DNA of 54,965 nt, from positions 1 through 54,965 of IMG/VR virus record IMGVR_UViG_3300044613_005025. One strand, given 5' to 3'. Position 1 is the first letter of the stretch. Each line of letters starts with the position of its first letter. The notes under the pieces are model-generated. The model had not been told where the DNA came from. It saw only the letters and a program-made list of their open reading frames with translations, and did not search any database. This document shows positions 10,305 to 31,795 of this stretch, one piece after another. Position numbers and translations under genes: made by a program. The DNA comes from a virus.

Positions 10305-10313
10305 CAGGATCAC

Positions 10314-14726: not shown

Positions 14727-15248
14727 ATGTCGCTGCGCACTCCCAATCAGGCCGCTGCTGATCCCGTGGAGGACCTGCGCTTCGCACCGGCTGAGCAGGA
14801 CTCCGATGGAGAAGCGGTGTGGGAACCGGTGGCGGTGGACCCGAGCCGGCCGATCAGCCAGACCAACCCGCCACGGCGTTCACCCCATCACGCCCAGACC
14901 CCCAGGGCCACTGCCGGGGAGGTGGAGCGGCGCATTGCAGAAGCGCAGCTCTGGATCGCGCAGCGGCTTCCTTTGGTGGAAATCAGGGCGAAAGCGGGCG
15001 AAAGCTGGGGGGTGAACAACATCAAAACGATCAATCGCTACCTCGACCTCGCCCGCGAGCGGATGGTGGAGGAGCTGATCACCGACCGCCGCCGCCACCA
15101 GGCCGAGCAGATCTTTGCGCTGAACGAGTGCGCCCGCCGGGCGATGGATGCCGAGCAGTTTTCAGCCGCCGTTGGCGCATTCCGGGTGATCGCCGAGATC
15201 GGCGGCCTGCTGCGGGCACCGATCAAGCCCCCGGAACCAAGGCCATGA
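14727..15248 (+). CDS. Terminase small subunit-like protein
   Basis: A 173-residue protein with a disordered, Pro/Asp-rich N-terminal third and a helical DNA-binding part (residues 70-120: GEVERRIAEAQLWIAQRLPL, then EIRAKAGESWGVNNIKTINRYL) consistent with a small-terminase HTH. A helical C-terminal region suits oligomerisation. Its stop overlaps the start of the large subunit by 4 nt, the usual arrangement of terS and terL. Small terminases recognise phage DNA for packaging. The identity rests on the HTH and on position. Confidence 0.72.
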   Translation: MSLRTPNQAAADPVEDLRFAPAEQDSDGEAVWEPVAVDPSRPISQTNPPRRSPHHAQTPRATAGEVERRIAEAQLWIAQRLPLVEIRAKAGESWGVNNIKTINRYLDLARERMVEELITDRRRHQAEQIFALNECARRAMDAEQFSAAVGAFRVIAEIGGLLRAPIKPPEPRP

Positions 15249-16888
15249 AGGCGAGCACCACCGCCACCGTGATGCCAGCACCCGTGCTCACGCTCCAGGC
15301 CCCTGCAGAAGGCGGCCTGCTGCTGCCGGAGCTCGACCCCTGGGGTGACGGCGGCCTGCTGCACCTGCCCAGCACCAGCCCTGCTGAACACCTGGAGCCC
15401 CAGCTGCTGCGGGCCTTCATTGCCGAGGCCTACCCCCGCTACGGCTTCCACCGCTGGGCCGAGGTGCTGATCGAGCTGCTGCAGGCCGTTGCCGATGGTC
15501 AGCTCAGCCGGCTGATCGTCACCTGCCCCCCGCGGCTGGGGAAATCGCTGCTGGTCTCCAAGCTGTTCCCGGCCTACTTCCTGCAGCGCTACCCGCACCT
15601 GTTCGCGGCGATTGCGTCTTATTCGGCTGAGCTGGCCTACGCCCACTCCCGTGAGGCGCGCCACTTCTACCGGGTGACCGGCCATCTGCTGGCCCGTGAC
15701 TCGGCGGCTGTTGGCAACTGGCTGACCCGCCAGCGGGGCGGCTGCATTGCTGCCGGTGTGGATGGCCCGTTCACGGGCAAGGGCTACAGCCTGGGGATCA
15801 TCGACGACCCTTACAAGGGCCCCGGTGATGCGGCATCACCAGCGCTGCGGCAGAAGCTGATCGACTGGCTGCGCTCGGTCTGGCTCACCCGCGCCGAACC
15901 GTCGAGCGTGCTGGGCCCTGATCGCAGCGAGCAGCCGAACATCTCCGCCCAGGTGGTGGTGCTCACCCGCTGGGACCACCAGGACGTGATCGGCTGGCTG
16001 CTGGAGCAGGAGCTGGGGGAGGCGCCGCAGCACTGGACCGTGCTGGATCTGCCGGCCATCGCCGAGGACCCGGCCGATCGCCCAAAGCTGCCGCCCACCT
16101 GCACCCTGATCCCCGACTGGCGCCAACCGGGTGAGGCGCTGTGTCCAGAGCGCTTCCCGCTGCAGGAACTGCTCAAAATTCGCGTCCGCCTCGGTGCCTA
16201 CTGGTGGGCGGCGCTGTATCAGCAGCGGCCCAGCCCGGCGTCGGGCTCGATCTTCCTGCGGCAGTGGATCCGGCCGCCCTTCCCCCGTGAAGACGGCCTC
16301 CAGCGGCAGTACGCCCTGCTGGCCCTCTCCTGTGACCTGAGCTTCAAGGGGGAGGCGGAGAGTGACTACTGCGGCTTCTGTCTGGCTGGTCTGCTGGCAC
16401 CACCGCCCCGGACGGTCAACCCCCGATCGGGTGAACCTGACGGCTCGCCGCCATCAGCCGCCCTGGAGATCGAGGTGCTCTGGGCGGCCCGCCACCGCTT
16501 TGGCCTGCCGGAGGTGATCCGCTTCCTGCTGGGCTGCCTGGAGGCCCTGGAGCAGCAGGGCCTCAGGCCCAATGCCGTTTTGATCGAGGACGCCGCCAAC
16601 GGCCCGGCCGTGCTGCAGACGCTGCGGCGCCGCGTGCCGGGGATGCTGCCGATCACCGCCCGGGGCAGCAAGGAAACCCGCGCCCATGCCGTCGCCCCAT
16701 TGGTGGAGGCCGGACAGGTCCGCTTCCACCACCGCGCCCAGCCGCTGATAGAGGAAGCGATCCGCTTTCCCAAGGGCAGCAAGGACCTGGTGGATGCCTT
16801 CTGCCACGGCGCCCTGTGGCTGGAAGGCCGCTACTGGAAGGCCCAAGGCATCCAGCCGGTGGTGACGCCGCTGCTGGTGAGCCGGTGA
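15245..16888 (+). CDS. terL: Terminase large subunit
   Basis: A 547-residue packaging motor and nuclease. The ATPase domain has a Walker A variant CPPRLGKS (residues 94-101), the SYSAELAYAHSREAR segment typical of the family, GPFTGKGYSLGIIDDPYKGP with the Walker B acidic pair, and VVVLTRWDHQDVIGW. The RNase H-like nuclease domain is seen in LALSCDLSFKGEAESDY, VLIEDAANGPAVLQ and KDLVDAFCHGALWL, which supply its acidic residues. The start at 15245 overlaps the stop of the small-subunit gene. The gene appears intact and full length, arguing that DNA packaging is a maintained function of the element. Confidence 0.93.
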   Translation: MKASTTATVMPAPVLTLQAPAEGGLLLPELDPWGDGGLLHLPSTSPAEHLEPQLLRAFIAEAYPRYGFHRWAEVLIELLQAVADGQLSRLIVTCPPRLGKSLLVSKLFPAYFLQRYPHLFAAIASYSAELAYAHSREARHFYRVTGHLLARDSAAVGNWLTRQRGGCIAAGVDGPFTGKGYSLGIIDDPYKGPGDAASPALRQKLIDWLRSVWLTRAEPSSVLGPDRSEQPNISAQVVVLTRWDHQDVIGWLLEQELGEAPQHWTVLDLPAIAEDPADRPKLPPTCTLIPDWRQPGEALCPERFPLQELLKIRVRLGAYWWAALYQQRPSPASGSIFLRQWIRPPFPREDGLQRQYALLALSCDLSFKGEAESDYCGFCLAGLLAPPPRTVNPRSGEPDGSPPSAALEIEVLWAARHRFGLPEVIRFLLGCLEALEQQGLRPNAVLIEDAANGPAVLQTLRRRVPGMLPITARGSKETRAHAVAPLVEAGQVRFHHRAQPLIEEAIRFPKGSKDLVDAFCHGALWLEGRYWKAQGIQPVVTPLLVSR

Positions 16889-16904
16889 GGGAGGAGAGGA
16901 AGCG

Positions 16905-17594
16905 ATGACGGGTGCAGACCTGGAAGCCCCAGATCAGACGCCACCGAAGGTTCTCGAGCCTGTGCCTGGGCAGCCGGTGGTATTTCAGCTGTCGCTGCCG
17001 ATCACGGTGGTGCTGGTGGGGTCTCCCACCGGTGCTGCTCGAATGCTGCGCCAACGGCGCTACCGCCGGCCGGCCTGTTGTGCGCGAGCGGGGCAGCTGG
17101 AGATCCAATGGGCAGAGCCTGCTCGGCATGCGCCAAGGGCTTCGGCCTGGCAGGCCCCGCACTGCCGGGCGAGGCGTCAACGGCCCGTGAGACCCCATGC
17201 CGCTGCCGATGCCCTGGCCTTGGAGCACATGGACCTGGCGGAGAAGATCGCTGGCAACTTCGCCCGGCGCACCGTCCACCCCAAGGAGGATCTGCTGCAG
17301 CTGGCGATGATCGGGTTGATCAAGGCGGCGCGGCGGTATGACCCTTCACGGGGTCCGTTTCGGCCCTACGGGCGCACCTATGCGAATGGGGAGATAACGC
17401 ACTTTCTGCGGGACAACGGGTTCCTGCTCAAGGTGCCTCCGACTTGGCGAGAGATCCATGCGCGGGGGCAGCGGTTGCTTACCTCAGGAGTTGATGTGGC
17501 GATGATGCTGGAAACATTGGAGATCAGCCGCGAGCAGTGGATTCAAATTGCTGATGCTTGCTCAGTTCGGGTGGTCGCTTTTCCTGTTGGTTGA
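16905..17594 (+). CDS. Sigma-70 family-like protein (region 2/3 only)
   Basis: The C-terminal 135 residues match sigma-70 region 2: ALEHMDLAEKIAGNFARR, HPKEDLLQLAMIGLIKAARRY and GPFRPYGRTYANGEITHFLRD. A short region 3-like stretch (VPPTWREIHARGQRLL) follows. No region 4 is present, so -35 recognition may be missing or supplied by a partner. The ATG at 16905 has a strong AGGAGAGGAAG ribosome site, but residues 1-94 are Arg/Cys-rich and unlike any sigma. An alternative start is GTG 17187, which overlaps a stop codon (GTGA) in another frame. The N-terminal part may therefore be a separate or frameshifted gene. It lies directly behind the terminase. Confidence 0.65.
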   Translation: MTGADLEAPDQTPPKVLEPVPGQPVVFQLSLPITVVLVGSPTGAARMLRQRRYRRPACCARAGQLEIQWAEPARHAPRASAWQAPHCRARRQRPVRPHAAADALALEHMDLAEKIAGNFARRTVHPKEDLLQLAMIGLIKAARRYDPSRGPFRPYGRTYANGEITHFLRDNGFLLKVPPTWREIHARGQRLLTSGVDVAMMLETLEISREQWIQIADACSVRVVAFPVG

Positions 17595-17650
17595 ACGCGA
17601 GCCATCAGCCGCGCGAGGTAAGGCGGTGACTGCATGGCCTTGTTCGCCTT

Positions 17651-18419
17651 TTACTCCGTCTTTCTAGCGACATACACACCGTAGCTGACGTAAGCCTTGT
17701 ATTTCTCATAGAGGTCAATTTCCCGTTGTTCCGCGAATACAATCTTTCGTGCTTCTTCACTGTTCCCGTTCCGGTTCAGGAAGCCCTCGAACCTGGCCTG
17801 CATGGGTTGGCAATACTCACTTAGCCAACAATCTTCAGGTAACACGAAGTACCCAATGGGCGAATAGCCGTGTTTCTCTAGAACCCTGATCTTGGCCGAA
17901 GCCACATCGATTTCGGTATACTCGCTATTCCAGTGGTTCTGGAGTTCCGCTGGTCGAGAGTCTGGGAGCCATGTGATCTCGGAAGCGACCAAAAGCCCCC
18001 CGCTTTTCAGGAAGCGTCGCCACTCAGCAACGCCCTTTTCAAATCCCATGTTGTAAATGGCACCCTCGGACCAGATGACGTCAAATTCTTCGTTGGTGAA
18101 TGGCAGGTTGTCCATGGAGCATGCAAGCGTCGATATCCGGTCTGCAAGACCCGCTTTTTCGGCCCTTTCATTCAGCTCGTCCAGGAAGTCCTGAATGAAG
18201 TCCACCGCCGTGATGTAAGCATTCAAGAGCCGGACAAGGAGAACGGCGGATGCCCCCGTGCCACACCCGATATCCGCAACCTTTCAGCGGCGCTGCTCGG
18301 TCGACCATGGCCAGATTGAGTGCCTGTTCCGTCTCGACGTCCCCACCCGTTCCCTGCCGAGAACCTTGCTTGTGCAGGTCGATCAAGAGTCTGTAATCAT
18401 CCATAGCGATATCTTGCAT
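17651..18419 (-). pseudogene. Frameshifted SAM-dependent methyltransferase
   Basis: A class I methyltransferase split over two frames. The N-terminal part starts at 18419 (MQDIAMDDYRLLIDLHKQGS) and runs to ...DRAAPLK. Motif I (VADIGCGTGA) and the rest, including TACSMDNLPF-like LACSMDNLPF and a complete C-terminus to 17651, lie in another frame. Removing one base from the TTT at 18282-18284 joins them into about 255 residues. This is either a real inactivating insertion or a sequencing error in a homopolymer. The family methylates small molecules or peptides; the substrate is unknown. The gene belongs to an AT-richer cargo segment that separates the terminase from the portal. Confidence 0.75.
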
Positions 18420-18722
18420 TGTCAGGCTGACGCCGCAGATCTGAAGCGGGAAGAGACTTGAAAGAAAGCAAAGCAGCCACGCTCCCGTCTTCTGTATCTA
18501 GATGTCAGGATAATATTGAGACTTGATTGCAATCAATAATTAGAATAAAATGTGACGCCTAAGATCCCCTCAAGACGGAGAGAGCGACAAGAAATATGCG
18601 ATTATAAGCACAAAGAACGTCTCTGTAGGCACAGGAGAATTGCGTGGGCATTGGACAACGCAATCCGAATTCTTATAATCAAGATGCGGCGGTCATAAAG
18701 ACGAGATTGCGGGGGAATGAGT
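18420..18722. other. AT-rich non-coding segment with putative promoter
   Basis: No gene is supported. On the minus strand TTGATT (18536-18531) and TATTAT (18515-18510) could be a promoter for the methyltransferase, though the 15-nt spacing is short. GATTGCAATC at 18524-18533 is a perfect 10-bp palindrome overlapping the possible -35 box. Confidence 0.35.
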
Positions 18723-19160
18723 TCAGACGCAACTGCTTTCACCTTGGCATTTCTTGCCGTCACAGCAGCATCCCCTAGTGCACTGCTGTGGTTGCGTACA
18801 CTGAGAAGGACATGCAAGCAAGCTCGTATATGGAATAGCTGGAACAATATCTTTGCCAACTTCTAAAACACGAGCAAGAACAACTCTTGTACCATTCTTA
18901 ATCCTCACTGCGACGTGTTCGCCTGGCACTTGAGAATTCTGCTCTTCAATAGCTGAAATGGACACAATACCCGATTCAGGAATTGCAAAAGCTTGTCCAT
19001 TTTGATCCATAAGATGAATTTCAGCATCCCCTCTGCTCACAAGACCTCCTGTAAGAGTTACCCCGCCAGCGAAATCGGACTGAGCAAGTGCCGCCTCTGT
19101 AATGCTAGAAAAATTCTTTAAGTCGAGCGTCCCAATAAAATCCTGGACCGAGCCTGTCAT
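18723..19160 (-). CDS. Unknown protein with an eight-cysteine tail
   Basis: A 145-residue protein of no recognised family. Residues 1-110 look like a beta-rich globular domain (ASITLTGG-like GGVTLTGGLVSRGDAEIHLM, VRIKNGTRVVLARVLEVG). The last 30 residues contain eight Cys in the pattern CxxxC, C, CCC, C, C (CPSQC, QQC, RGCCC, KKC, SSC). This could be a metal-binding or disulfide-rich tail, or a modified peptide. No modification enzyme is beside it, except the frameshifted methyltransferase. The GC content is lower than in the phage core. There is no signal peptide. Confidence 0.5.
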   Translation of the reverse strand: MTGSVQDFIGTLDLKNFSSITEAALAQSDFAGGVTLTGGLVSRGDAEIHLMDQNGQAFAIPESGIVSISAIEEQNSQVPGEHVAVRIKNGTRVVLARVLEVGKDIVPAIPYTSLLACPSQCTQPQQCTRGCCCDGKKCQGESSCV

Positions 19161-19509
19161 TCGAGCTTGCCTTTATATTAAATCTCAACGTAAAATCAAA
19201 AAGCCCTGGCAAAGTGTCACCGTCACAGATCTTAATAAGAGTAGCGATATGGCTGAATACAGTGCGCTTAATTCTCCGACGCACTACAGGCTGTATCTCA
19301 GGCGCCTGCATGCGGTGGTCTGAAATTGGAACGGTGAGCCCCTCTGCAACTTGTCATGATTTATATCTGAGTGTGGTTGTGCGGAACAAACCTCCTTGCG
19401 GTGGAATGGCTCTCACTCGTATCTGCCCCCTAAACGGATTCTAATAAGTTTTATCACAGATGCTCCGCCACCCGGCCGGAAAGATGATTGATTAACATGC
19501 TAAATACGA
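19161..19509. other. Non-coding stretch in the cargo segment
   Basis: No supported gene in 349 bases. The sequence is AT-richer than the phage core. AGTGCG and CGCACT near 19259-19285 form a weak inverted repeat. Short open frames here lack credible starts or composition. It probably holds divergent promoters for the flanking genes. Confidence 0.35.
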
Positions 19510-19515
19510 TTGCCA

Positions 19516-19863
19516 ATGGGTAGTTCAGCCAAGGTACTTGCCTGTAAAGCATTCAAGGAAAAGCTTGCTAAAGGATTAGAAGATTTAGATTCATCTTGCT
19601 CATTCCTGAATGCCATTGATGCCACCACTTGGTCGATATTTATGTCTAACCTGCAATACAATGGGAACCAGCTAGTGCATGCAGATTGCACCCGCCTAGC
19701 CGAGAAACTTGACAGGGATCAGATTGCAGAAGTGCTTGCAAACTTTGGAGTGTCTGATGAACAGTTTGCTTCGTGGTACAATCACGCATGTATTCTGTTT
19801 GAGTGCGAAACCATTCCAGGTGTCTATTGCGATGCTCAAGGGTGCCGTTTGCCTGAATCATGA
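19516..19863 (+). CDS. Unknown small cytoplasmic protein
   Basis: A 115-residue helical, slightly acidic protein with several Cys (AKVLACKAF, SSCSFL, VHADCTRL, HACILFEC, GVYCDAQGC). The helical stretch LDRDQIAEVLANFGVSDEQF is well formed. No family is recognised. The composition matches the neighbouring cysteine-tail gene more than the phage core, so it is probably part of the same inserted cargo. ATG 19516 is used; an upstream TTG at 19510 would add two residues. Confidence 0.5.
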   Translation: MGSSAKVLACKAFKEKLAKGLEDLDSSCSFLNAIDATTWSIFMSNLQYNGNQLVHADCTRLAEKLDRDQIAEVLANFGVSDEQFASWYNHACILFECETIPGVYCDAQGCRLPES

Positions 19864-19884
19864 GTCAATGCATGGTCAATCAGT

Positions 19885-19920
19885 AACTGTGTTGAATTCG
19901 ACAACTGTGTTGAATTCGAC
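19885..19920. repeat. Tandem duplication of 18 bp
   Basis: AACTGTGTTGAATTCGAC occurs twice head to tail, at 19885-19902 and 19903-19920, directly after the small unknown gene. It is probably a replication-slippage duplication in non-coding DNA. Confidence 0.8.
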
Positions 19921-20152
19921 TCTTGCGGAGCCTTGCGTCTTGTCTTCACTAAACCATATCTTTACAGATCGGCTTCCTGGAATCTCCAAGAAGTAGAAGC
20001 CTACTCCTAAGCATTAAGTCAAGGCTATTCAGTCAGAGCACTCATTTTGCCCCTAGGGAATTTTAGAAGGGTTGCCTTGGCCGAAATTCTCGTTGGCTGC
20101 CGGCGCACCCAATCACGGCCTCTGGCAATGGCTTTGCCCCCACCAGCAGCCA

Positions 20153-21730
20153 ATGCCCACCACCCGCCGCCGCTGGACAACTACCCCCAGCAGCCCCTCC
20201 TCCCCACCAGCGCTGCAGCCCCAAGCACCGGCTGAGCCCCCCTGGCTGGAGCACCCCACCCTCTCCGGCCTGAGGGACCGCCTGCAGCTGGTCTACGACT
20301 GCTGGACCCTGCTGGATCTACCTGACGGCACCAGCCGCCGGCCGGTGCATCTGCCTCGGGGGATAGAAGAGCCCGAAACCTGCTACATCAAGCGGCTGGA
20401 AGCCGCCCGGCCCACAGGCTTCTACCGCGATGCCCTGCGCACCTATGCCGGGATGCTGTCGCGCCTGGCCTGGCAGGAGCTCCCCGACTCCCTGACCCGA
20501 GTGGCCACTGATGTCGATGGCCAGGGCACCGACTTGGGGGTGTTCCTGTTTCTGGCCGACCTGCTCACCCTGCGGGATGGCGGCTGCCTGATCCTGCAGC
20601 TGCCGCCCCAGCACCGCTGGCCCTCAGAAGGGGATCGGCTGGAGGCCCTCGCCAAGGGCGATCGACTCTCCTTCCCCCGCCTGCAGCTGGTGCCCCGGGG
20701 TGACCTGCTGAATTGGCGCCTGCCCACTGATGCCGCCACAGCTGCTCCGGCATCGGGCCCAGTGGAGATCGTCTGGCGAGAGCCTCGCCGCCAGGCCCTG
20801 CCGCCCCGCTTCTCCAGCGGCAATGCAGGCGTGCCCACGGTGGTGATCGACGCCCATGGCGGACTGGTGCCCGATCCACAGGTCTGGCTGTACCGCAGCC
20901 TGTCGGTCACCGATGACGGCCTGGTGCTGCGCAGCTGGCAGGCCAACCCCAACCCCGGTGCCGTCGATGGCTACGACGTGGTGCCGGTGGGTGAGCCTGA
21001 GCGGATGCCCCAGCGCTTTGACCTGCCGGCCCTCTGGTACTCGGTGGATGGCAGCGCCTTTGGCGAGGGCGATCTGCCCCACCTGGGCCTGGCGCACCAG
21101 TACCTCAACCACTACCGCTGTCGCAGCGAATACGAGGACCTCTTGTCGCGCACCGCCCTGCCGGTGGGTGTGCGCACCGGCCTGGTGGATGCCTACGGCT
21201 TCCGCCGCAGCGACGGTGCCCTGGGCACGGGTCCCGCCACCGGTGGAGCAGAGGGCCAGCGCCCCCAGCGGCTGGTGCTCTCCACCTCTTCGTTCATGGA
21301 CCTGCCCGAGGGCGCCACGTTCCAGTGGGTGGAGATCGAGGCCCGCTCGCTGGCGGAGCACCGGGCCTACTTGCAGCAGCTGGAGGAGGCCATGCGCCGC
21401 GATGCCCTGATCCCGGCCGGCGGCCATGGCCCGGCCCGCACCGAGCTCGAGATTTCCCTGACTGCCGGCCAGAGCTTTGCGGTGCTGCAGTCGCTGGCGG
21501 GCCAGAAGCGCTCGATGCTCAGCACCCTGCTGCAGCAATGGACCCGGCTCACCGGCGAGAAGCTCTCCGATGAACCGGCTTGCACGGTGGAGATCTGCCC
21601 GCTGGTCCCTCCGCAGCCAGCCCGCAAACCCGAGCCTTCAGTGCAGGAGTGGCTGCTGCTGCATGAGCGCGGGGTGATCGATGCGGCGGAGCTGCGGCAG
21701 CAGCTGGGGCTGGCGATCCCTGGCGACTGA
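20153..21730 (+). CDS. Phage portal protein (DUF4055-like)
   Basis: A protein of about 525 residues forming the ring through which DNA enters the capsid. The conserved part begins at LEHPTLSGLRDRLQLVYD and continues with YIKRLEAARPTGFYRDALRT, GVFLFLADLLTLRDGGCLIL and NHYRCRSEYEDLLSRTALPV, as in DUF4055 portals. The C-terminal helices (EISLTAGQSFAVLQSLAGQK) fit the wing and crown region. ATG 20153 is chosen; a TTG at 20072 preceded by AGAAGG at a poor distance would add 27 residues. It is the first gene of the structural module, after the cargo segment that separates it from the terminase. Confidence 0.82.
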   Translation: MPTTRRRWTTTPSSPSSPPALQPQAPAEPPWLEHPTLSGLRDRLQLVYDCWTLLDLPDGTSRRPVHLPRGIEEPETCYIKRLEAARPTGFYRDALRTYAGMLSRLAWQELPDSLTRVATDVDGQGTDLGVFLFLADLLTLRDGGCLILQLPPQHRWPSEGDRLEALAKGDRLSFPRLQLVPRGDLLNWRLPTDAATAAPASGPVEIVWREPRRQALPPRFSSGNAGVPTVVIDAHGGLVPDPQVWLYRSLSVTDDGLVLRSWQANPNPGAVDGYDVVPVGEPERMPQRFDLPALWYSVDGSAFGEGDLPHLGLAHQYLNHYRCRSEYEDLLSRTALPVGVRTGLVDAYGFRRSDGALGTGPATGGAEGQRPQRLVLSTSSFMDLPEGATFQWVEIEARSLAEHRAYLQQLEEAMRRDALIPAGGHGPARTELEISLTAGQSFAVLQSLAGQKRSMLSTLLQQWTRLTGEKLSDEPACTVEICPLVPPQPARKPEPSVQEWLLLHERGVIDAAELRQQLGLAIPGD

Positions 21731-21746
21731 ACTGGCAAGGGTGGAC

Positions 21747-22244
21747 ATGACCCAGTCCTCCCCACCCACCTGCAGCTGGCGCCCCGGTGACAGCGAGACG
21801 CTGCGCATCGCCCTGTCTATCCCCGTCACCAGTGCTGCCCTGGCGGCGCTGAACCGAGAGATGTCCCAGCTGCAGACCCACTACCCCACCGGGGTGTGCA
21901 CGGCCCAGCGGCACCTCGACGCCATCGCCGAGCTGGATCAGCAGCTGGCGGCCCTGACGCCAGCCGATCTGAACACCCCGGTGCGCAGCAGCCGCAAGGG
22001 CGTGGCCGGTGGCGTGGTGCCCAACCCGCTGCCGCTGAGCAAGTTGGCGGTAGTCGAGTACGCCACCGAGCTGCTGCTGGAGGAAACCGAAAGCCAGTGG
22101 GATCCCAATGCCCCGTCACCAGCGGTGGTGCTTGGGAGGCAGCGCAGCCAGCGCATCGGCCAGCTGGCGCTGCTGTTGCCAAGACTGCAGAACTGGCGCC
22201 AGTGCAACCCCGACCCCTTCCGGGGATCACTGGTTCGGGGCTGA
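21747..22244 (+). CDS. Head-module protein of unknown function
   Basis: A 165-residue protein in the structural operon between portal and LysM genes. It has helical segments (SAALAALNREMSQLQTHYPT, RHLDAIAELDQQLAAL) and LAVVEYATELLLEETESQWD. Size and position would suit a head or connector protein, but there is no recognisable family. The ATG at 21747 follows the portal stop closely; the open frame upstream overlaps the portal gene. Confidence 0.6.
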   Translation: MTQSSPPTCSWRPGDSETLRIALSIPVTSAALAALNREMSQLQTHYPTGVCTAQRHLDAIAELDQQLAALTPADLNTPVRSSRKGVAGGVVPNPLPLSKLAVVEYATELLLEETESQWDPNAPSPAVVLGRQRSQRIGQLALLLPRLQNWRQCNPDPFRGSLVRG

Positions 22245-22247
22245 GGA

Positions 22248-23417: not shown

Positions 23418-23486
23418 GGAGCTGGCAACAGGGAGAGCGAGCGCAGCCCGGACGGGGCGCCCGCAGCACCACAGCCGTGATGGGTG

Positions 23487-24440
23487 ATGCCCTCTTCCTT
23501 CTTCTCTGACTTCAGCCGCACCAGCAGCGGCACCAAACCAGACCTTATTGCTCCTGCCGCTCCGTGGCAGGTCTACCGCCAGCACCAGCAGCAGCCCAAC
23601 CAGGGCCCTGCTGGTTCCACTGCTGCACCAGCCGCTGACCTCGCCCCTCTCGACGAGGACGATGACGATGCCAGCAGCCTGGACGGCGGCTCCGGTGACG
23701 ACAGCTTTGACGCTGCGTCGACCCTCGACTCCAGCCCCGGCAGCGGCGACCACGACGATCCCCCCGCTGCCGCCACCAGCACTGCTGATCCCCTGCGCGC
23801 CGAGCGCCGCCGCAGCAACCAGCTCGAAAAAGAACTGCGCAAGGCCCGAGCCCAGCTGTCGCGCTTCTCCGAGATCAACCCGGACGAGTACGCCCGCCTG
23901 CAGGACGCAGAGCGCAAGCGCGAGGAGTTCGAACGCCAGGTGGGCGAGCGCGAGCGTCAGCTCAATGAGGCCAACCTGCGCCGCGTGCGCAGCGTCGAAA
24001 AGGAACGGGACGAGGCCCGCTGTCAGGTGCAGAACCTGCGCAAGGAGCGCTTGATGGAGCGCCTCTTCTCAGAAGCAGAAGGCCGTGTGGGCGGTGATGA
24101 ACGGGGGACGTTCTTTGACACCTTCGTGACGCTGTGCGGCGGCCACTTCCAGCTGGGGGAGGTGGACGGCCGCGAGCGGCTGCTGCCGGTAGACGGCAAG
24201 GGCCAACCCCTCACCGCCGATGGCGTGGCCCTGAGCGATGGCGACTACATGGAGGAGTTGCGCCGCCACCCGGTGTACAGCTTCCTGTTCCAGCAGCGCA
24301 GCGGCCTCTATTCGGCTGCTGTGCCTGAAACGGGCCATGAGCACGGTGGAGCGGTGAATCTGCAGACCCTGAGTACGGCCGAGCTGTATCTGGAGGCGGT
24401 GAAGGGCACCACTCCCAGGGCGGCTGCACCGCGGCGCTGA
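23487..24440 (+). CDS. Scaffold-like capsid assembly protein
   Basis: A 317-residue protein with the hallmarks of scaffolds: an acidic disordered N-terminal third (LDEDDDDASSLDGG and further Asp/Ser), then a long coiled coil (about residues 105-190, RRSNQLEKELRKARAQLSRF, EFERQVGERERQLNEA) and a small C-terminal domain. It lies upstream of the major capsid protein in the structural module. Scaffolds guide capsid assembly and leave before packaging. The assignment is by architecture and position; no protease gene is recognised nearby. ATG 23487 is preferred over the GTG just before it. Confidence 0.7.
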   Translation: MPSSFFSDFSRTSSGTKPDLIAPAAPWQVYRQHQQQPNQGPAGSTAAPAADLAPLDEDDDDASSLDGGSGDDSFDAASTLDSSPGSGDHDDPPAAATSTADPLRAERRRSNQLEKELRKARAQLSRFSEINPDEYARLQDAERKREEFERQVGERERQLNEANLRRVRSVEKERDEARCQVQNLRKERLMERLFSEAEGRVGGDERGTFFDTFVTLCGGHFQLGEVDGRERLLPVDGKGQPLTADGVALSDGDYMEELRRHPVYSFLFQQRSGLYSAAVPETGHEHGGAVNLQTLSTAELYLEAVKGTTPRAAAPRR

Positions 24441-24460
24441 TCACCGAAGGAGCTGAGGGA

Positions 24461-24748: not shown

Positions 24749-24871
24749 CCCAGCCATCAATCAGCAGGACGTCATGCAGCAAGCCGATCTGTAACAGCAG
24801 TGGAATGGCTCTGGCACCGGCAGCGCTGCTCCGCTTTGCTGCGGCCCAGCGCTTCCTGCCGCTGTCCCGCC

Positions 24872-25066: not shown

Positions 25067-25180
25067 GGACAGCGGCGGCTGCCTGCTCTTCCACTCGCCT
25101 GCTCACGGGTTCCATGAGCTTTCCCTGCATGAGGATGAAGGCCCGGCCACCAACCGGCAGCCGGGCCTGAACCCCCAGGC

Positions 25181-25399
25181 TCAGCAGACCGAGACGGTGC
25201 AGCCGGGGGTGCCCTGCAGCTTGCGGGCAAAGGCGAATGCCTTCTCAGCGGGGATCAGCCGCATCTTTTTGACGGGTTTGCCGCGACGGCCCAAGAACTC
25301 GACCTCACAGGGAGTGGTGCCGAGCTTCTGGACGCCGGGCTGATAGCGGTGAACCACAAGCAGGCGGACTTCGCAGACGGGGCCTTGGGGAATGGCCAT
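25181..25399 (-). CDS. Small basic phage protein
   Basis: A 72-residue protein (MAIPQGPVCEVRLLVVHRYQ...) with a beta-strand-rich look and a basic middle (LGRRGKPVKKMRLIPAEKAF) ending in GTPGCTVSVC. It is the most distal gene of the minus-strand block containing the lysis candidates. The downstream direction converges on the plus-strand head genes. No function is recognised. Confidence 0.5.
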   Translation of the reverse strand: MAIPQGPVCEVRLLVVHRYQPGVQKLGTTPCEVEFLGRRGKPVKKMRLIPAEKAFAFARKLQGTPGCTVSVC

Positions 25400-25673
25400 G
25401 GCTGGGATGGAGCGGAGAACACCGACCAGACGCCCCGCAGGTGAGCACTGGCCAGGGGCGAGCACCGCGAGCCTTGCGTCAGCCCTGACCAGTGGGAGCC
25501 GCAGGGGCATGCTGCGGAGGGGTTTCGCGCCGCCCGGCCAGCCAGCCCCCAGTGGCAACGGTGCAAGTGCCGTGCTGGACTCCCACCGCGCCCGAGCAGT
25601 GGAGCTGCTCCACCAACCCTGGGATCGAGGGACAGGCAAGGGGGCCGCAGCTGCAGCCCCCAACCCATGGCGC

Positions 25674-25997
25674 TCAGACCATCTGCAGCTTCTGCTCAGA
25701 CAGTGACTGGCGCTGGAGCTCGAGCTCACAGCGCTGCATCAGCTCTTGCTGGGCCAAGAGCCGCTCATCCAGCTCATCAATGCGTGCCAGACACTGCTGG
25801 ATTGCCGGGATCACCTCCTCCTCCAGCAGAGTGATCTCCTCTTCTCCATAGGGCTGCTCGATCCAGGTGCGGCGCAGCGGCAGCCCACGACGACGCAGCA
25901 GGATCTCCTCCACCGAGCGCAGCGTGGATTCGAGCAGCAGGAATGGATCTTCCTCAGACCGGCAGAACGGTGAGGCAGCAGATGAGAGCGTGGCCAT
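25674..25997 (-). CDS. Coiled-coil protein of the lysis block
   Basis: A 107-residue acidic, helical protein with a coiled coil in its second half (ITLLEEEVIPAIQQCLARID, then LDERLLAQQELMQRCELEL). It lies 114 nt downstream of the holin-like gene and on the same strand. By size and position it could be a spanin-like or accessory lysis factor, but there is no signal peptide or lipobox, so this is only a guess. Confidence 0.5.
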   Translation of the reverse strand: MATLSSAASPFCRSEEDPFLLLESTLRSVEEILLRRRGLPLRRTWIEQPYGEEEITLLEEEVIPAIQQCLARIDELDERLLAQQELMQRCELELQRQSLSEQKLQMV

Positions 25998-26111
25998 GGT
26001 GATCGGCGCCAAGAGCGGCGCAGCGACGGGACCGATCCCAGAGGAGGCCCGACGTCAGGCGGGCCTCAGACTGGAGAGGCCCGGAGCAAGCCCTCCTCCC
26101 GCTCCCAGGCG

Positions 26112-26378
26112 TTACCGGTCCATCCGCGACAGTGCTGCTCCACCCAGCAGCGCCAGTAGCAACTTGAGGGTGGAGTCAAAGCCGCCCTGCAACTGCTCCA
26201 GCGTGCCGGGGCAGATCTGGCCGATCGATCGCCCCTCCAACGCCCGCTGGCCGCAGACCCCAGCGGCGAGGGAATAGATCAGCAGCTGGGTGCCGATCAC
26301 CACCGCCAGGATCTTGAAGACGAACCGCTCACGGTCGAACGGTGGCTTTGGCGGTCGGGGTACTGGGTTGGCTTGCAT
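26112..26378 (-). CDS. Holin-like small membrane protein
   Basis: An 88-residue protein with a basic Pro-rich N-terminus (MQANPVPRPPKPPFDRERF), a transmembrane segment (about residues 19-43, KILAVVIGTQLLIYSLAAGV) and a second hydrophobic segment near the C-terminus (TLKLLLALLGGAAL). Two-pass proteins of this size next to a cell-wall enzyme gene are typical class II-like holins. A strong ribosome site (GGGAGGAG) precedes the ATG. It begins 52 nt downstream of the L,D-transpeptidase gene. The holin role is inferred from topology and neighbourhood. Confidence 0.6.
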   Translation of the reverse strand: MQANPVPRPPKPPFDRERFVFKILAVVIGTQLLIYSLAAGVCGQRALEGRSIGQICPGTLEQLQGGFDSTLKLLLALLGGAALSRMDR

Positions 26379-26430
26379 CGCTGCTCCTCCCTTGATCAGG
26401 CCCCAGCTGCTGGCAGCACCAGCTCCGGCG

Positions 26431-27174
26431 TCACTTTTTTTCCTGGAACACCCCCACGTACACCGTGCCCTGGCGGTACAGCGGCAGCACCTTGTCGCGC
26501 AGGTCAGCGTTGTGCAGGCGGAGGCAACCCAAGGTGGGATGCAGAGGCTGCTGCGGTGCCCAGGCCATCGGCCAGCCGCAGGCCGAGCCGCCGCCGTGGA
26601 GCATGATCCCGGCCCGGCCGACGGCCACCTCCTGGCCCTCCAGTTCCTCCATGTCAAAGGAGTACCAGCCGTAGGCCATGGCTGTGTCGGAGCAGGGCGG
26701 GTTGGGGTTCTGCTCGTAGTCCGCGTAGAGCTGCCCCAGTCGGTAGAGCCCCGGCGGGGTGTCGGTGCTGTTCTGGGTCCAGTCGGTGTCGCTCCCCTGG
26801 CCGCGGGCCAGGCAGGGGATCTTCCAGAGGAGCTGGCCGCTGTGGTCGTAGGCCTCCATGTCCTCATCCCGGTCGTTCACCAGCAGGTAGGAATCCCCGG
26901 GCTGGACGGGTGCTGCCAGCTGCGGGCCGGCCATGCCGGCTTCCTCTGAACCACGGGGATCGAGGCCGCCGCTGGGGACTGCTGGTGCCGGGGGCGCAGC
27001 GGGTTTCTGGCTGAAAGTGAGCGCCCAGGGGGCCTGTTCATCGAGGACGGCCTCGCTGCCGGGCAGTGCAGCGATCGCGGCATGGAGGGTCCAGACGCCG
27101 GAGACCTGCTGGGGTTCACCGCGGAAGGCTTCAAAGCGGTCCAGGAACCGCTCGGGGGTCATGGGGCTGGCCAT
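26431..27174 (-). CDS. L,D-transpeptidase (YkuD) domain protein, candidate lysin
   Basis: A 247-residue protein. The N-terminal 110 residues are Pro/Ala-rich with TPERFLDRFEAF. The C-terminal domain is YkuD-type: LLVNDRDEDMEAYDHSG, DTPPGLYRLG, IMLHGGGSACGWPMAW and the catalytic TLGCLRLHNADLRDKVLP with Cys and the His of IMLHGG. YkuD enzymes transfer or cleave peptidoglycan stem-peptide bonds using Cys. There is no signal peptide, so the enzyme would need the adjacent holin-like protein to reach the wall. The start at 27174 (MASPMTPE) is chosen over an upstream in-frame ATG. It is unusual as a phage lysin. Confidence 0.75.
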   Translation of the reverse strand: MASPMTPERFLDRFEAFRGEPQQVSGVWTLHAAIAALPGSEAVLDEQAPWALTFSQKPAAPPAPAVPSGGLDPRGSEEAGMAGPQLAAPVQPGDSYLLVNDRDEDMEAYDHSGQLLWKIPCLARGQGSDTDWTQNSTDTPPGLYRLGQLYADYEQNPNPPCSDTAMAYGWYSFDMEELEGQEVAVGRAGIMLHGGGSACGWPMAWAPQQPLHPTLGCLRLHNADLRDKVLPLYRQGTVYVGVFQEKK

Positions 27175-27270
27175 GGGTGTGGTGCTGCTGAGCCCTGTTG
27201 CCAGTCCCGGCTTGGGGCCGCCGGCTGCGGGCACAAAGAGAGCGCCCCAGCCGCAGCCGGGGCCGCCCCC

Positions 27271-27471
27271 TTAGAAGGGCAGCTCGCTCTCGGGGCACCA
27301 GACGGGCACCGAAGCTGGCGTGGCCACCTGGCGATCGAAGAGCAGATCAGCGCAGAGCCGCTCAAGCCGCTCAAGAGGAGCCGGGCGGTGGGCCGATGCC
27401 TCCTCGCACAGGCACTCCAGGGTGCGGGAGCTCAGGAGCTGGAAGGCGCGGATCCGGGATGCGGAAGCCAT
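27271..27471 (-). CDS. Possible small protein upstream of the lysis genes
   Basis: A 66-residue open frame (MASASRIRAFQLLSSRTLEC ... PVWCPESELPF) that precedes the L,D-transpeptidase gene on the same strand. It has helical content, two Cys near the start of the second helix and no recognised family. No ribosome site is evident, so it may be non-coding. Confidence 0.35.
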   Translation of the reverse strand: MASASRIRAFQLLSSRTLECLCEEASAHRPAPLERLERLCADLLFDRQVATPASVPVWCPESELPF

Positions 27472-27726
27472 GGCAGGCGTAGCGGAGACCCCGAAGCAGG
27501 CCGGGCGGGGTCAAGGGGCAGCCCCCTCTGCAATGCGGAGCGCAGCGAAGCCAACGCACCAGTCCGGCTGACTCGCGCAGCCCTTGAGGCCGCCCGGACC
27601 ATGAGGAGGGCTGCGCGTAGCCGATCCACCAGGAGCTGGGCCACCACGGTTCTTTCTCCTCGGTGGTTGGGGCGTGGGGACACCTGGCAACAGCTGCTGT
27701 TGTCACTGGGGCCAGGCCCCGGGAGC
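27472..27726. promoter_or_regulatory. Region between lysis block and capsid gene
   Basis: About 255 bases between the divergent lysis block and the capsid gene. It must contain promoters for both, but no clear hexamers are visible in this GC-rich DNA. An open frame runs through it into the capsid gene without similarity to capsid N-termini, so I treat it as non-coding. Confidence 0.3.
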
Positions 27727-28638
27727 GTGCCCTTGGGCCTGACCTTGATCGAGGCGCAGAAATACGCCCGCCGTGCGGAGCAGCTGGCGGTGCTCAAGAC
27801 CTTTGCGGAGGGGGAGCTGCTGCGCCGCCTGCCCTTCCGCAACCTCGTGGGGGGCTCGTTGAGCTTTCCGGCGGAAACCAAGCTGCCCCGCGTGGGTTTC
27901 CGCGCGGTGAACGAGGGCTATCGCCAGAGCTATGGGGTGATCAATTCCGATTCGGAGTTCGTCCACCTCTTTGGTGGCGACCTGGATGTGGACCGCTCGA
28001 TCGTGGACCTGCAGGGCCCTGAGGCTCGTGCTGCCCAGACCGAGATGAAGGTGCGCTCCATGCGGCTCACCCTGGAGGCCGCCATCATCAACGGGGATGA
28101 CACCTTCGATCCGCGGGCGTTCAACGGGCTGAGTAAGCGCCTGGTGCCGGGTGAGGACCAGACGATCGACAACGGCGGCAATACCCTCAACCTGCTGGCG
28201 CTTGAGGCGTTGACCGACAGCGTGATCGGCTACGGCGGCGACAAGGTGCTGATCGCCAGCAAGGCCGCCCGGCGCCAGATCAGCACCGCCTCCCGCCAGG
28301 CCGGTGGGGATCTGTATGAGGTGATTGACGGACGCCACTATTTCGAGGGGGTGGAGATCCTGCTGGTGGAGGAGGACGCCGAGGGCAACGCCGTGCTCGG
28401 TTACGACGAACCGGGAGACACCACCTCCATCTACTGCTGCGTGCTGGGTGATGCGGCGGTGTGCGGCCTGCAGGGGCCGTTCGAGGGGCGGTATGGGATC
28501 TCAGTGCGGGACTTCGGGGAGGTGCATGACGCGCCGGTGTTTCGCACGCGAGTGGATTGGTACGTGGGTTTTGCCGTCTGCAACCGCAAGGCCGCTGCGC
28601 GGCTTTACAACGTGGCGCCCATGCCGCTGGTGGTCTGA
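27727..28638 (+). CDS. Major capsid protein
   Basis: A protein of about 303 residues that resembles HK97-fold capsid proteins of phages with DUF4055-type portals. Features are the N-terminal helix (LTLIEAQKYARRAEQLAVLK), ELLRRLPFRNLVGGSLSFPA, the spine-helix region around EARAAQTEMKVRSMRLTLEA, IINGDDTFDPRAFNGL with SKRLVP, and LNLLALEALTDSVIGYGGDK with VLIASKAARRQISTASRQ. The C-terminus ends with a strand-rich axial segment. The GTG at 27727 is chosen because recognisable sequence begins there; a longer open frame extends upstream to 27082. It is downstream of the scaffold but separated from it by the inverted lysis block. Confidence 0.82.
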   Translation: MPLGLTLIEAQKYARRAEQLAVLKTFAEGELLRRLPFRNLVGGSLSFPAETKLPRVGFRAVNEGYRQSYGVINSDSEFVHLFGGDLDVDRSIVDLQGPEARAAQTEMKVRSMRLTLEAAIINGDDTFDPRAFNGLSKRLVPGEDQTIDNGGNTLNLLALEALTDSVIGYGGDKVLIASKAARRQISTASRQAGGDLYEVIDGRHYFEGVEILLVEEDAEGNAVLGYDEPGDTTSIYCCVLGDAAVCGLQGPFEGRYGISVRDFGEVHDAPVFRTRVDWYVGFAVCNRKAAARLYNVAPMPLVV

Positions 28639-28695
28639 GACCGCCCCTGACCAGAAGAACCCCTCACGCCAACACCCCCAACCAGGAGACCCCTG

Positions 28696-29130
28696 ATGAC
28701 CTCTCAAGCCACCCGGCTGCTCGACGCCCAGACGGTGCTCGTCGGCTGGATCAACCACTCCGCCACCGACTGCTACGAGCACATCCGCAGCAGCGGTGAT
28801 GTGGTGAACCTCGGCACCGATCTCGATGCCTGCTCCTCCTTTGTGCTGGTGGCCTCCCACCCCGGCCACAGCGAGGCGGTGACCGTGACCATCGAGCTGG
28901 CGCCCCTACTGGATGACGGCAGCGCCGGCACCTGGATCACCGCCTCTGCCGTGGCCATCCCTGCCGCTGGCGGGAAGGTGGAGGCCACGATCAGCGGCGC
29001 GTCGCTGCTGCTCAACCCTGCCGACAGCGAGCTGATCAGCCCGCCCTGCCTGCGGCTGGCGCGGGCCAGCGTTTCTCCCGCCACCCCGGCGGGGATGTGC
29101 GTGGCCCTGACGGCCACCCAGGGACTGTGA
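28696..29130 (+). CDS. Capsid-associated protein of unknown function
   Basis: A 144-residue beta-rich protein (SSFVLVASHPGHSEAVTVTI, WITASAVAIPAAGGKVEATI) placed 57 nt after the capsid gene, with an AGGAG ribosome site. Size, composition and position fit a head decoration or stabilisation protein. No family is recognised. Confidence 0.65.
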   Translation: MTSQATRLLDAQTVLVGWINHSATDCYEHIRSSGDVVNLGTDLDACSSFVLVASHPGHSEAVTVTIELAPLLDDGSAGTWITASAVAIPAAGGKVEATISGASLLLNPADSELISPPCLRLARASVSPATPAGMCVALTATQGL

Positions 29131-29140
29131 GGTGCCGGCC

Positions 29141-29734
29141 ATGAACAACCCCCTTGAGTCCACTGGCGCCGCCGCCGGTGTTGCCGATGCCGGTGTCGCT
29201 GGTGCCGGTGCCCCCGTGCTGCCGTTGCAGCTGCTCCAGCCCCTCGATGCCTCCCATCCGCTCAGCAGCCCCACCAGCCTTGGCGGTCCTGAGCAGCGGC
29301 TCATCGTCAGCCCCGATCCCAGGGTGGGGGTGGAGCTGGATCTGCGGCCCACCCGCCTGCTGATCAGCAGGGACGGGCAGACCCGCTCGATCTGGCCGGT
29401 GCATCTAGCCGGTTGGCAGGCCCTGGGCTGGCAGCTGCTCACGCCCGCCGAGGCGACAGAGGTGATGCAAGACCCTGCCCCTGCCGCGATCGAGCCTCCC
29501 CCTGCGGCTGAGAGCCTGCCAACACCTGGAGAAGCCCTGCTGGCGGGGGAGGAGCCCAACTTCCAGGCGATGACCAAGGCGGAGATCACCGCGTTCTGCG
29601 CGCAGACCTTTGGCGTCAGCGTCGATGGGGCGATGACCAAGGCCGAACTGGTGGCCACCGCCACCGGCCTGCACCAGGAGGCAGCGGTTGGCGAGCACCC
29701 TGCCGATGGGGAGTTCCCCGATGACCTCCTCTGA
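29141..29734 (+). CDS. Structural-module protein with HeH/LEM-like C-terminus
   Basis: A 197-residue protein. The N-terminal part is Ala/Pro-rich; a globular segment with VGVELDLRPTRLLISRDGQT and IWPVHLAGWQALGWQLLTPA follows. Near the end MTKAEITAFCAQTFGVSVDG and MTKAELVATATGL form a helix-extended loop-helix of the kind found in phage and Rho-like proteins. The next gene starts inside its last codons (29,721), indicating coupling. Role unknown, possibly connector or assembly. Confidence 0.6.
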   Translation: MNNPLESTGAAAGVADAGVAGAGAPVLPLQLLQPLDASHPLSSPTSLGGPEQRLIVSPDPRVGVELDLRPTRLLISRDGQTRSIWPVHLAGWQALGWQLLTPAEATEVMQDPAPAAIEPPPAAESLPTPGEALLAGEEPNFQAMTKAEITAFCAQTFGVSVDGAMTKAELVATATGLHQEAAVGEHPADGEFPDDLL

Positions 29735-29942
29735 TCCCGCTGCCCCCAGTCCCACTGGCAGCGAGCGGCCGGAGGGGGTGATCTTCCTGGGGGAATCGCA
29801 GTGGGTGTTCGGCAACCGCCCCCTGCCTCCCTCCGGCCCGATCACCGTTCTGCTGGCCAGCCCGCCGCTGCGCACCACCACTGCTGGCAATGGGGTGGTG
29901 TCGATCTCCTTCGACATGCGGCTGCTGGCTGCTCTGCCTTGA
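29721..29942 (+). CDS. Small structural-operon protein
   Basis: A 73-residue protein (MTSSDPAAPSPTGSERPEGV ...) with a Ser/Pro-rich start and a beta-rich body (ITVLLASPPLRTTT, GVVSISFDMRLLA). It overlaps the previous gene by 14 nt in another frame. No function is recognised; it is kept because of coupling and operon position. Confidence 0.5.
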   Translation: MTSSDPAAPSPTGSERPEGVIFLGESQWVFGNRPLPPSGPITVLLASPPLRTTTAGNGVVSISFDMRLLAALP

Positions 29943-29991
29943 ACCTTGCCGCCACAACCGCTGCTGCAACTCTCTTCACCCCCTGAACCCC

Positions 29992-30714
29992 ATGGCCACC
30001 GCCCCCACCCGCACCCCGATCACCAGCACCACCACCAGCGACAGCCCCGCTCCCGCTGAGGCTCCAGCCAGCCGCACGCTGGCCAGCGACCTGCTGATTG
30101 TTCAGCGGGGCGCCATTCCTTACAAGGCCACCGCCGAGCAGCTCAAGGGCTACATGCTCACCCCGGCCACCGCGGCGGCGATCGGTGCGATCAAGCCCGG
30201 CACCAACCTCTCTGTGGATGCCGACGGCACCCTCCATGCCTCCATTCCCGGCGCCCTGCAGTACCAGGGCGCGATCGATCCCACCAGCGCAGAGGCCCCG
30301 GCCGATGCTGCGGTGGGGGATGTGTACCTGGCCAGCACCTCCGGTGAGGCCCTCGAGAGCTGGAGCGGCATCGCGGGCCAGCAGGTGGCCCAGGGGGACC
30401 TGCTGCTGTTTGACGGCAGCAGCTGGAGTGCCAACGCAGCCCTGGGCCCCGATGGCGCTGGCGTGATTCGCATCCAGGTGAGCGCACCGCTGGCCATCGA
30501 TGAAAGCGATCCGGCCCAGCCCTTGCTCAGCGTTGATCCCGCCACCACGGCTGCTGCCGGTGTGTTGCGCCTGGCCAGCGGCGAGGACCTCAGTGCCGGC
30601 ACCGAGGGCGCGGCCGTGGATGCCGCTGCCCTGAAGGCGGCGATGGAGACGGCCCAGCCTGCGGGGGACTACATGCCGCTGGACATCAGCAGCCTGCCTG
30701 CCCTGCCCGCCTGA
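29992..30714 (+). CDS. Tail-fibre or adhesin-like protein
   Basis: A 240-residue low-complexity, Ala/Ser/Thr-rich protein. After about 30 residues it shows LASDLLIVQRGAIPYKATAE, a segment related to the N-terminus of the next gene product (DLFAVQRDGTTCRAAAADLL), probably an attachment module. A beta-rich stretch GALQYQGAIDPTS ... GDVYLASTSGEALESWSGIA with GDLLLFDGSSWS is of the type repeated in cyanophage fibres. It likely forms part of a host-contact appendage. The start is ATG 29992. Confidence 0.62.
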   Translation: MATAPTRTPITSTTTSDSPAPAEAPASRTLASDLLIVQRGAIPYKATAEQLKGYMLTPATAAAIGAIKPGTNLSVDADGTLHASIPGALQYQGAIDPTSAEAPADAAVGDVYLASTSGEALESWSGIAGQQVAQGDLLLFDGSSWSANAALGPDGAGVIRIQVSAPLAIDESDPAQPLLSVDPATTAAAGVLRLASGEDLSAGTEGAAVDAAALKAAMETAQPAGDYMPLDISSLPALPA

Positions 30715-30751
30715 GCCCCCGCCTCCTTTCCAACCGCCTGCTGTTGCTGAC

Positions 30752-31795
30752 GTGATCCAGCCCACCGACCTGTTCGCTGTTCAGCGCGATGGCACCACCT
30801 GTCGTGCCGCCGCCGCTGATCTGCTGGCCCTGCTCCAGGCCGGGCCAGCCTCCCGTACGGCAGGCAGGCTGTGGGACCTGGTCAGCACCCCTGCAGATCA
30901 GGACTGGCGATCGGTCTGCTGGGCACCTGAGCTGCGGCGGTTGGTGGCCGTTTCTATCGATGGCAGCCAGCGGGTGATGACCTCAGAGGACGGCCGGCAC
31001 TGGAGCAGCCGCCCCACGCCCAGCGACAACAACACCTGGATTGGTGTCTGCTGGAGTCCGGAGCGGCTGTTGTTTGTGGCGGTGGCCTCCGGCGGCACCA
31101 GCAACCAGGCGGTGATGACTTCCCCGGATGGGATCACCTGGACAGCCCGCAGCGTGCCCGTGGCCAACAGCTGGGTGGCCATCTGCTGGAGCCCCGATCG
31201 GCTGTTGTTTGTGGCGGTGGCCTTTGGTGGCACCGCCAACCAGGTGATGACCTCCCCGGATGGGATCACCTGGACGGCACGCAACGCAGCGGCCAGCCTG
31301 GTGTGGCGTGGGGTGTGCTGGGCGGCTGAGCTGGGTCTGTTCGTGGCGGTGGCCACCACCAGCAATGGCACCAACCAGGCGGTGATGACCTCCCCGGATG
31401 GCATCACCTGGACGCTGCGCACCACCCCGGCGGATAACACCTGGCGCAGTCTCTGCTGGGCCCATGAACTCGGCCTGCTGGTGGCAGTGGGCCAGAGCGG
31501 CACCGGCAACCGGGTGATGACCTCCCCAGATGGCATCACCTGGACGCTGCGCAGCACGCCAGCGGATCTGGACTGGCGGGCGATCTGCTGGGCAGCCGAG
31601 CTCAACCTCCTGGTGGCCGTTGCCGGCACCGGCAGCGGAAACCGGGTGATGACCTCAGCCAACGGCCTGAGCTGGACCTTGCGCGCCAGCGCCGCTGACC
31701 TGCAGTGGAGCGGCCTCTGCTGGGCCCCGGAGCTGGGCCAGCTGGTGGCCGTGGCCCAGAACGGCACCGGCAGCCGTGTGATGGTCAGCGCCTGA
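30752..31795 (+). CDS. Seven-repeat beta-propeller fibre protein
   Basis: A 347-residue protein with a short N-terminal module shared with the preceding fibre-like protein, then seven repeats of about 41-46 residues. Each has a W-x-x-x-C-W core, a hydrophobic LVAV strand and VMTSPDGITWT, an Asp-box-like turn. Seven such repeats suggest a closed seven-bladed propeller. The four central repeats are nearly identical at DNA level, so recent duplication or gene conversion is likely. As the last fibre gene, it is a good candidate for the receptor-binding tip. The start is GTG at 30752; no ribosome site is clear. Confidence 0.72.
   Translation: MIQPTDLFAVQRDGTTCRAAAADLLALLQAGPASRTAGRLWDLVSTPADQDWRSVCWAPELRRLVAVSIDGSQRVMTSEDGRHWSSRPTPSDNNTWIGVCWSPERLLFVAVASGGTSNQAVMTSPDGITWTARSVPVANSWVAICWSPDRLLFVAVAFGGTANQVMTSPDGITWTARNAAASLVWRGVCWAAELGLFVAVATTSNGTNQAVMTSPDGITWTLRTTPADNTWRSLCWAHELGLLVAVGQSGTGNRVMTSPDGITWTLRSTPADLDWRAICWAAELNLLVAVAGTGSGNRVMTSANGLSWTLRASAADLQWSGLCWAPELGQLVAVAQNGTGSRVMVSA
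31112..31543 (+). repeat. Near-identical internal DNA repeats in the propeller gene
   Basis: A 30-bp block encoding VMTSPDGITW recurs at 31112-31141, 31244-31273, 31382-31411 and 31514-31543, with only one or two differences between copies. The periods are 132, 138 and 132 bp. This is in-frame repetition with potential for blade number change by recombination. Confidence 0.8.

Follow-up and report, generated by a model that had tools for sequence, protein, structure and literature searches.

Tail-less, head-encoding integrated elements of picocyanobacteria as possible borrowers of helper tails

Results and discussion

The stretch analysed here (the window) is the IMG/VR virus record IMGVR_UViG_3300044613_005025, positions 1–54,965, 54,965 bases in all, and it is an almost complete integrated element of a family carried by picocyanobacteria (Synechococcus, Cyanobium, Vulcanococcus). 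It encodes gene sets for integration, replication, DNA packaging, head building and host lysis. The record opens with a tyrosine integrase gene, from its start codon on (1–1290, plus strand); the product shares 96% identity with the integrase that neighbours tRNA-Gly(TCC) in Cyanobium FGCU6. Using tRNA-Gly(TCC) from a Cyanobium chromosome that carries an element with a 96%-identical integrase, we recognised the right attachment site (attR, 54462–54510, plus strand), a 49-bp exact match to the 3′ end of the tRNA gene, as the element terminus. The window is thus essentially one integrated element and approximately 455 bp of host DNA, with the left attachment site (attL) outside the record, just to its left; by its integrase and its attachment (att) site at a tRNA gene it qualifies as a functional integrative mobile element. 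Outside the head region the record holds replication, regulation and defence cargo genes.

The head and packaging genes are of the HK97 type of tailed siphoviruses (Caudoviricetes, PSS2/S-CRES group) and lie on the plus strand. They start with a small terminase subunit (TerS, 14727–15248), listed without reserve in a preliminary description of this stretch and kept here as putative, on position, conservation and a weak match to one unnamed PHROG. The large terminase subunit (TerL, 15245–16888; phrog_38, 6e-76) is followed by a sigma-70 region 2 factor (16905–17594), which also adjoins TerL in the cyanosiphoviruses S-CRES3 and PSS2, and, further on, by the portal protein (20153–21730; phrog_145, 7.5e-18; DUF4055, 1e-9). 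Then come p187, a helical putative head-tail adaptor (21741–22244), a putative head-closure protein with LysM repeats (the LysM protein, 22248–23417), the scaffolding protein (23487–24440; phrog_206, 1.5e-11) and a major capsid protein of the GP7/SU10 type (27733–28638; phrog_212, 1.5e-54; NCBIfam MCP_gp7, 2.6e-53); the longest start of the capsid open reading frame (ORF) is at 27082, yet the capsid match starts near 27733. PHROGs, Pfam and NCBIfam matches therefore bear out TerL, portal, scaffold and capsid as first described. Neither a head maturation protease nor an HNH endonuclease was matched in the head region of the window, which has the scaffold only. Beyond the capsid gene lie p144 (28696–29130), conserved beside it in all clades and with no homologue found in cyanosiphoviruses, the fast-evolving p197 (29141–29734) and p73 (29721–29942), the fibre-like p240 (29992–30714; no match among phage records) and a 347-aa fibre protein (30752–31795) whose beta-propeller-like repeats match fibres of Synechococcus phage B23, at up to 45%, and tail fibres of a Caulobacter phage, in keeping with the fibre-like proteins noted before.

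Profile annotation of the window found no tail tube, sheath, baseplate or tape measure, which agrees with the lack of a recognisable tail module in the preliminary description, and approximately 45 relatives that share its gene order are likewise tail-less. The unknown proteins of the window matched no nozzle or tail-tube family in PHROGs, Pfam and PDB sequence searches, and PDB profile searches with p187 and p144 returned chance-level matches only. The element ends at attR, so no tail genes of it are hidden to the right of the record. We ran gene-by-gene profiles of S-CRES3 against 29,015 ORFs from element loci: the TerL, portal, scaffold and capsid profiles had strong matches, and none was found for Neck1 (gp78), gp79, gp80, gp82, the tube (gp83) or the tape measure (gp84), nor for gp85–88, gp92, gp93 and gp95–98. 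The gp94 profile matched fibre-region genes of other element clades. In a PHROGs scan of 103 non-core ORFs there was no tail family among the 25 of 79 families listed; because this screen was incomplete, we also took the smallest att-bounded element and scanned its ten largest non-core ORFs against Pfam, again without a tail family. The major tail protein, tape measure and tail completion genes that characterise a tailed siphovirus were thus not found in the elements.

The nearest tailed relatives by head genes are the cyanosiphoviruses PSS2, S-CBS2 and S-CRES1-3 (capsid 40–42%, portal 26–28%). S-CRES3 and PSS2 share with the element the order TerS-TerL-sigma, portal, scaffold-capsid, but have their tail module between portal and scaffold, where the elements have only genes resembling gp75 and gp77. 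The S-CRES3 order runs TerS, TerL and sigma, then portal, then gp75, gp77, gp78 (Neck1, phrog_5), gp80, gp83 (major tail protein) and gp84 (tape measure), followed by further tail and fibre genes, scaffold and capsid; the regions read in PSS2 follow the same plan. The first gene ahead of the neck and tail block is gp75, and the element interval holds p187 and then the LysM protein. p187 matches gp75 (profile E 3e-5; HHalign probability 55%), and its profile also matches (E 3e-8) a gene between the portal and a Neck1-like gene in a tailed cyanobacterial prophage (G144). The N-terminal part of the LysM protein matches gp77 (profile E 9e-4; HHalign probability 91%, against 0.3% for the negative control gp78), and the two share a YANAR motif. 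Reverse profiles were weak (gp75, E 0.03; gp77, E 0.0075), with p187 and the LysM protein as top matches among the 29,015 ORFs. In siphovirus assembly, adaptor and head-closure proteins complete the head before it joins a tail that was made separately. Position and weak homology point to p187 as a putative adaptor and the LysM protein as a putative head-closure protein, and on these homologies the cut appears to fall at the head-tail joint, with everything from Neck1 onward gone and two head-side neck homologues kept.

The absence of a tail is not a product of a truncated record, because att-bounded and circular relatives are tail-less too. Four relatives are att-bounded, with units of 46.3, 48.8, 56.1 and 60.7 kb. 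A closed chromosome (G120) carries a 48,759-bp copy (G120c) flanked by att repeats of 47 bp at tRNA-Gly(CCC); G008 contains a tandem pair of exact 56,093-bp copies and three att cores (L046–L051, on one contig, NZ_JACVZV010000018, of the metagenome-assembled genome of Vulcanococcus sp. Clear-D1); G013C38 spans 60,667 bp; and G012C11, 46.3 kb, lies at tRNA-Arg with its integrase at the opposite end. The att repeats are 46–47 bp in G120, G008 and G013. A further relative (G003) is a circular 49.8-kb genome by its exact 99-bp end repeat, which is not flagged in IMG/VR; TerS and TerL stand at opposite ends of its record and an intact att core is internal. In G120 (L094–L097) a third att core lies 14.2 kb beyond the 48.8-kb element, and the stretch between, with a split integrase and fragments, is possibly a remnant or a small dependent element.

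Of 400 Cyanobiaceae genomes, 63 have matches to the capsid protein (52 with E <1e-100), up to five per genome, and these matches fall into three clades at about 90–99%, 73% and 64% identity to the window capsid. The element capsids form one group apart from tailed phages (support 97/98) in a tree whose wider branching is unsure owing to long phage branches. In broad outline, and with cargo inserted at several points, the family order is integrase, replication, TerS, TerL, sigma, portal, p187, LysM protein, scaffold, lysis, capsid, p144, p197, fibres, sigma, cargo and Rad52. This order was conserved and a tail module absent in every portal-to-capsid region read in relatives, and members of all three clades had none from portal to capsid or beside the capsid gene. 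Clade B, with portal and capsid approximately 35 kb apart on one contig, was considered as a full tailed phage and rejected: the intervening genes are cargo (by eye, potassium-transport-like and restriction-modification-like) with no tail module. A p187-seeded search for tailed sisters gave 25 viral contigs, and the 16 more distant ones that we screened were all tail-less elements. On one viral contig (L160, 10000–20450) approximately 5 kb, from p187 to the holin-like gene, is apparently duplicated in tandem, either biologically or as an assembly artefact.

Median ratios of nonsynonymous to synonymous substitution rates (dN/dS) against the window, rough values over many pairs of which some are divergent, were 0.03 for capsid, 0.14 for portal, 0.16 for the LysM protein, 0.18 for scaffold, 0.22 for p187 and 0.14 for endolysin, and higher, 0.35–0.66, for fibre-region proteins. 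Head, neck and lysis genes are thus under purifying selection, which on head genes argues against decay. In clade A the fibre region encodes the propeller protein together with p240; in clades B and C it encodes collagen-like and other proteins, with matches to PHROG tail-fibre families. The missing tail is real, family-wide and apparently maintained.

Of the options that the preliminary description offered (defective prophage, short-tailed phage with divergent tail proteins, capsid-forming satellite), the last has the strongest support: what the elements lack is the block that forms the tail module in their nearest phage relatives, and the neck genes on the head side have stayed. We lean, with no great confidence, towards the elements being large capsid-forming satellites that dock their own heads on helper tails. 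In a host infected by, or co-induced with, a tailed siphovirus, the element would excise, replicate and fill its own heads; the kept neck proteins, p187 and the LysM protein, would close these heads, which would then join preformed helper tails as hybrid particles. The fast-evolving fibres would serve as decoration of the head or neck or change which hosts the borrowed tail selects. As to tail donors, the cyanosiphovirus tube family occurs in 2 of 400 genomes, and among 20 carrier genomes one had PhageMin_Tail above cut-off and one a phrog_1407 match, two families that do not cover all tails. The genome so matched (G179) also has two element-type capsid genes, and a separate siphovirus-like region in it (L122, G179 C45), with genes for portal, tube and a tape-measure protein of 787 aa, is a candidate tail donor. 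Since most carriers have no recognised resident donor, a helper would usually arrive by infection, and the scarcity of donors would fit a satellite that depends on virulent phages.

Several points weigh against tail borrowing, which is inferred from the absence of tail genes together with the kept neck genes. The p187–gp75 and LysM–gp77 matches are weak, and the functions of gp75 (adaptor) and gp77 (head closure) are read from their positions. For two of the unknowns between 20 and 32 kb, whose annotation had been proposed as a check, the structure predictions are too weak to decide: AlphaFold2, on shallow alignments, gave an all-helical p187 with a predicted local distance difference test score (pLDDT) of 64 and nothing significant in Foldseek, and a LysM protein with a pLDDT of 43; neither of the two links is confirmed by them. 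Own fibre proteins and lysis genes are not strictly needed with helper tails, and the elements are approximately four times the size of the capsid-forming phage-inducible chromosomal islands (cf-PICIs). It is mainly the lack of a recognised resident donor in most carriers that keeps a helper-free model alive.

Under such a model the element would be an autonomous virus with a very short tail or none that delivers its DNA without a helper, and in which a minimal podovirus-like nozzle or fibre-bearing neck has taken the place of the tail module; p187, the LysM protein, p144, p197, p73, p240 and the propeller protein would be candidates for it. We give this a serious though minority chance. It would account for the element's own replication and lysis genes, for variable fibre proteins under relaxed selection, as is typical of receptor binding, for the rarity of tail families in carrier genomes, with no obvious resident helper, and for p144 standing beside the capsid gene in every clade; p144, p197, p73 and p240 have no known fold, which leaves room for the short-tailed phage. 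The kept neck proteins, however, resemble head-side neck genes of siphoviruses, and the database searches above gave the unknown proteins no nozzle or tail-tube family. That an HK97-type lineage has long lived without a tail, spreading helper-free by fibre-bearing heads that are tail-less or have newly evolved a short tail, we hold to be unlikely.

Several copies per genome and the defence cargo would also suit a domesticated particle-forming system, like a gene transfer agent or a carrier of defence islands, that packages DNA for the benefit of the host. Known gene transfer agents have tails and lack an integrase. The elements, with integrase and att sites, do not fit an agent without integrase that packages random host DNA, and in their own TerS and TerL, their replication genes, their patchy distribution and the circular and tandem forms they are like selfish mobile elements, which makes domestication very improbable. 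A decaying prophage that has lost its tail genes, the defective prophage of the preliminary description, would explain the missing genes and some broken cargo genes (17.6–18.4 kb), but is contradicted by a tail-less gene order that recurs in three capsid clades, by purifying selection (dN/dS as low as that of capsid and portal), and by the precision of the att sites, the tandem pair of exact 56,093-bp copies and the circular unit; we consider it barely credible.

Among known systems, cf-PICIs are integrated and have their own terminase, portal, capsid and head-tail connectors without tail genes (PMC10690885), in a genome of approximately 14 kb (PMC10803314). The elements resemble them in encoding capsid, portal, terminase and, by weak homology, connectors, and no tail. 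They differ in size (46–61 kb vs ~14 kb; PMC10803314), in hosts (Cyanobacteria, absent from the cf-PICI host list of PMC10803314), in having a scaffold with no protease or HNH found, and in their own lysis genes, sigma factors, Rad52 and fibres, with a capsid nearest to cyanosiphoviruses. By size and protease/HNH content, then, they appear analogous to cf-PICIs rather than members. The Streptomyces satellites MulchRoom and MiniFlayer have TerS, TerL, portal, scaffold, capsid and a head-to-tail adapter; no tail genes were detected in MulchRoom's system, and MiniFlayer keeps fibres and attaches to the neck of its helper (PMC10690885). Like MiniFlayer, the elements keep variable proteins resembling those for host recognition and lack the shaft; unlike these satellites, which have no primases and short linear genomes with terminal repeats, they carry a primase, a helicase and a lysis cassette. 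Prochlorococcus tycheposons, mentioned among packaged chromosomal islands and maybe satellites (PMC10803314; PMC10187409), are by description also mobile islands of picocyanobacteria. We found no description of the element family in the open-access literature; subscription papers were mostly outside the search, so novelty is not proven.

Known tail-borrowing satellites are small and come from few bacterial groups. If the satellite interpretation is true, the elements would be a large, multi-copy picocyanobacterial family that brings its own lysis and replication genes together with exchangeable defence islands. With the genome cut at the neck, the family offers a natural experiment on the point at which head assembly parts from tail assembly, and helper dependence and defence-gene traffic in primary producers could be tested in cultured strains such as Synechococcus WH 5701 and Vulcanococcus limneticus.

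Other genes of the element

The gap at 24.4–27.5 kb, before the capsid gene, is occupied by a minus-strand lysis cassette (25181–27471) of p182, p107, an 88-aa holin-like membrane protein (26112–26378), a YkuD-type endolysin (26431–27174; E 7e-5) and p66. The endolysins of the window and of a clade B element (G019C67, 51777–52511, L127) have a common N-terminal domain (MTPERF..EAF.GEPQQVSG.W) and differ in the remainder, which is YkuD in the window and, by eye, C39-peptidase-like in the other.

An early and replication block, conserved in relatives, occupies 4840–10313 (minus strand) and includes, besides unknowns, a Bro-N antirepressor (4840–5613), an ssDNA-binding-like protein (5906–6499; weak match), a VRR nuclease (8493–8870) and a DEAD/ResIII helicase (8892–10313). 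On the plus strand follow a primase (Zn_Ribbon_Prim, Toprim_3; 10625–13255) and a PD-(D/E)XK (Cas4/RecB-like) nuclease (13543–14235). A second sigma factor (regions 2 and 4; 32412–33068, minus), a KilA-N antirepressor-like protein (33079–34182, plus) and a Rad52-type annealing protein (51613–52461, minus) lie beyond the fibre genes.

Directly beside the integrase is a low-GC pair of GTPase genes, one dynamin-like (1347–4444, minus), without a PADLOC match. Variable low-GC cargo of small ORFs (17595–20100) includes a methyltransferase that is broken, split over two frames; the rest of the element is intact. In the clade B element of G019 C67 (L125–L128), what by eye resembles a kdp potassium-transport operon stands between scaffold and lysis genes. 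The defence cargo of the window (34636–44208, plus) comprises DUF499, DUF3780, a DUF1156 methyltransferase and a PLD/SNF2 helicase, an 'anti-phage-associated' cassette that recurs in G211 C7 (17083–26631; L137–L138) at 91, 97, 78 and 94% identity, inserted there at a different point, between scaffold and lysis genes; its presence at different insertion points indicates that the cassette moves between elements.

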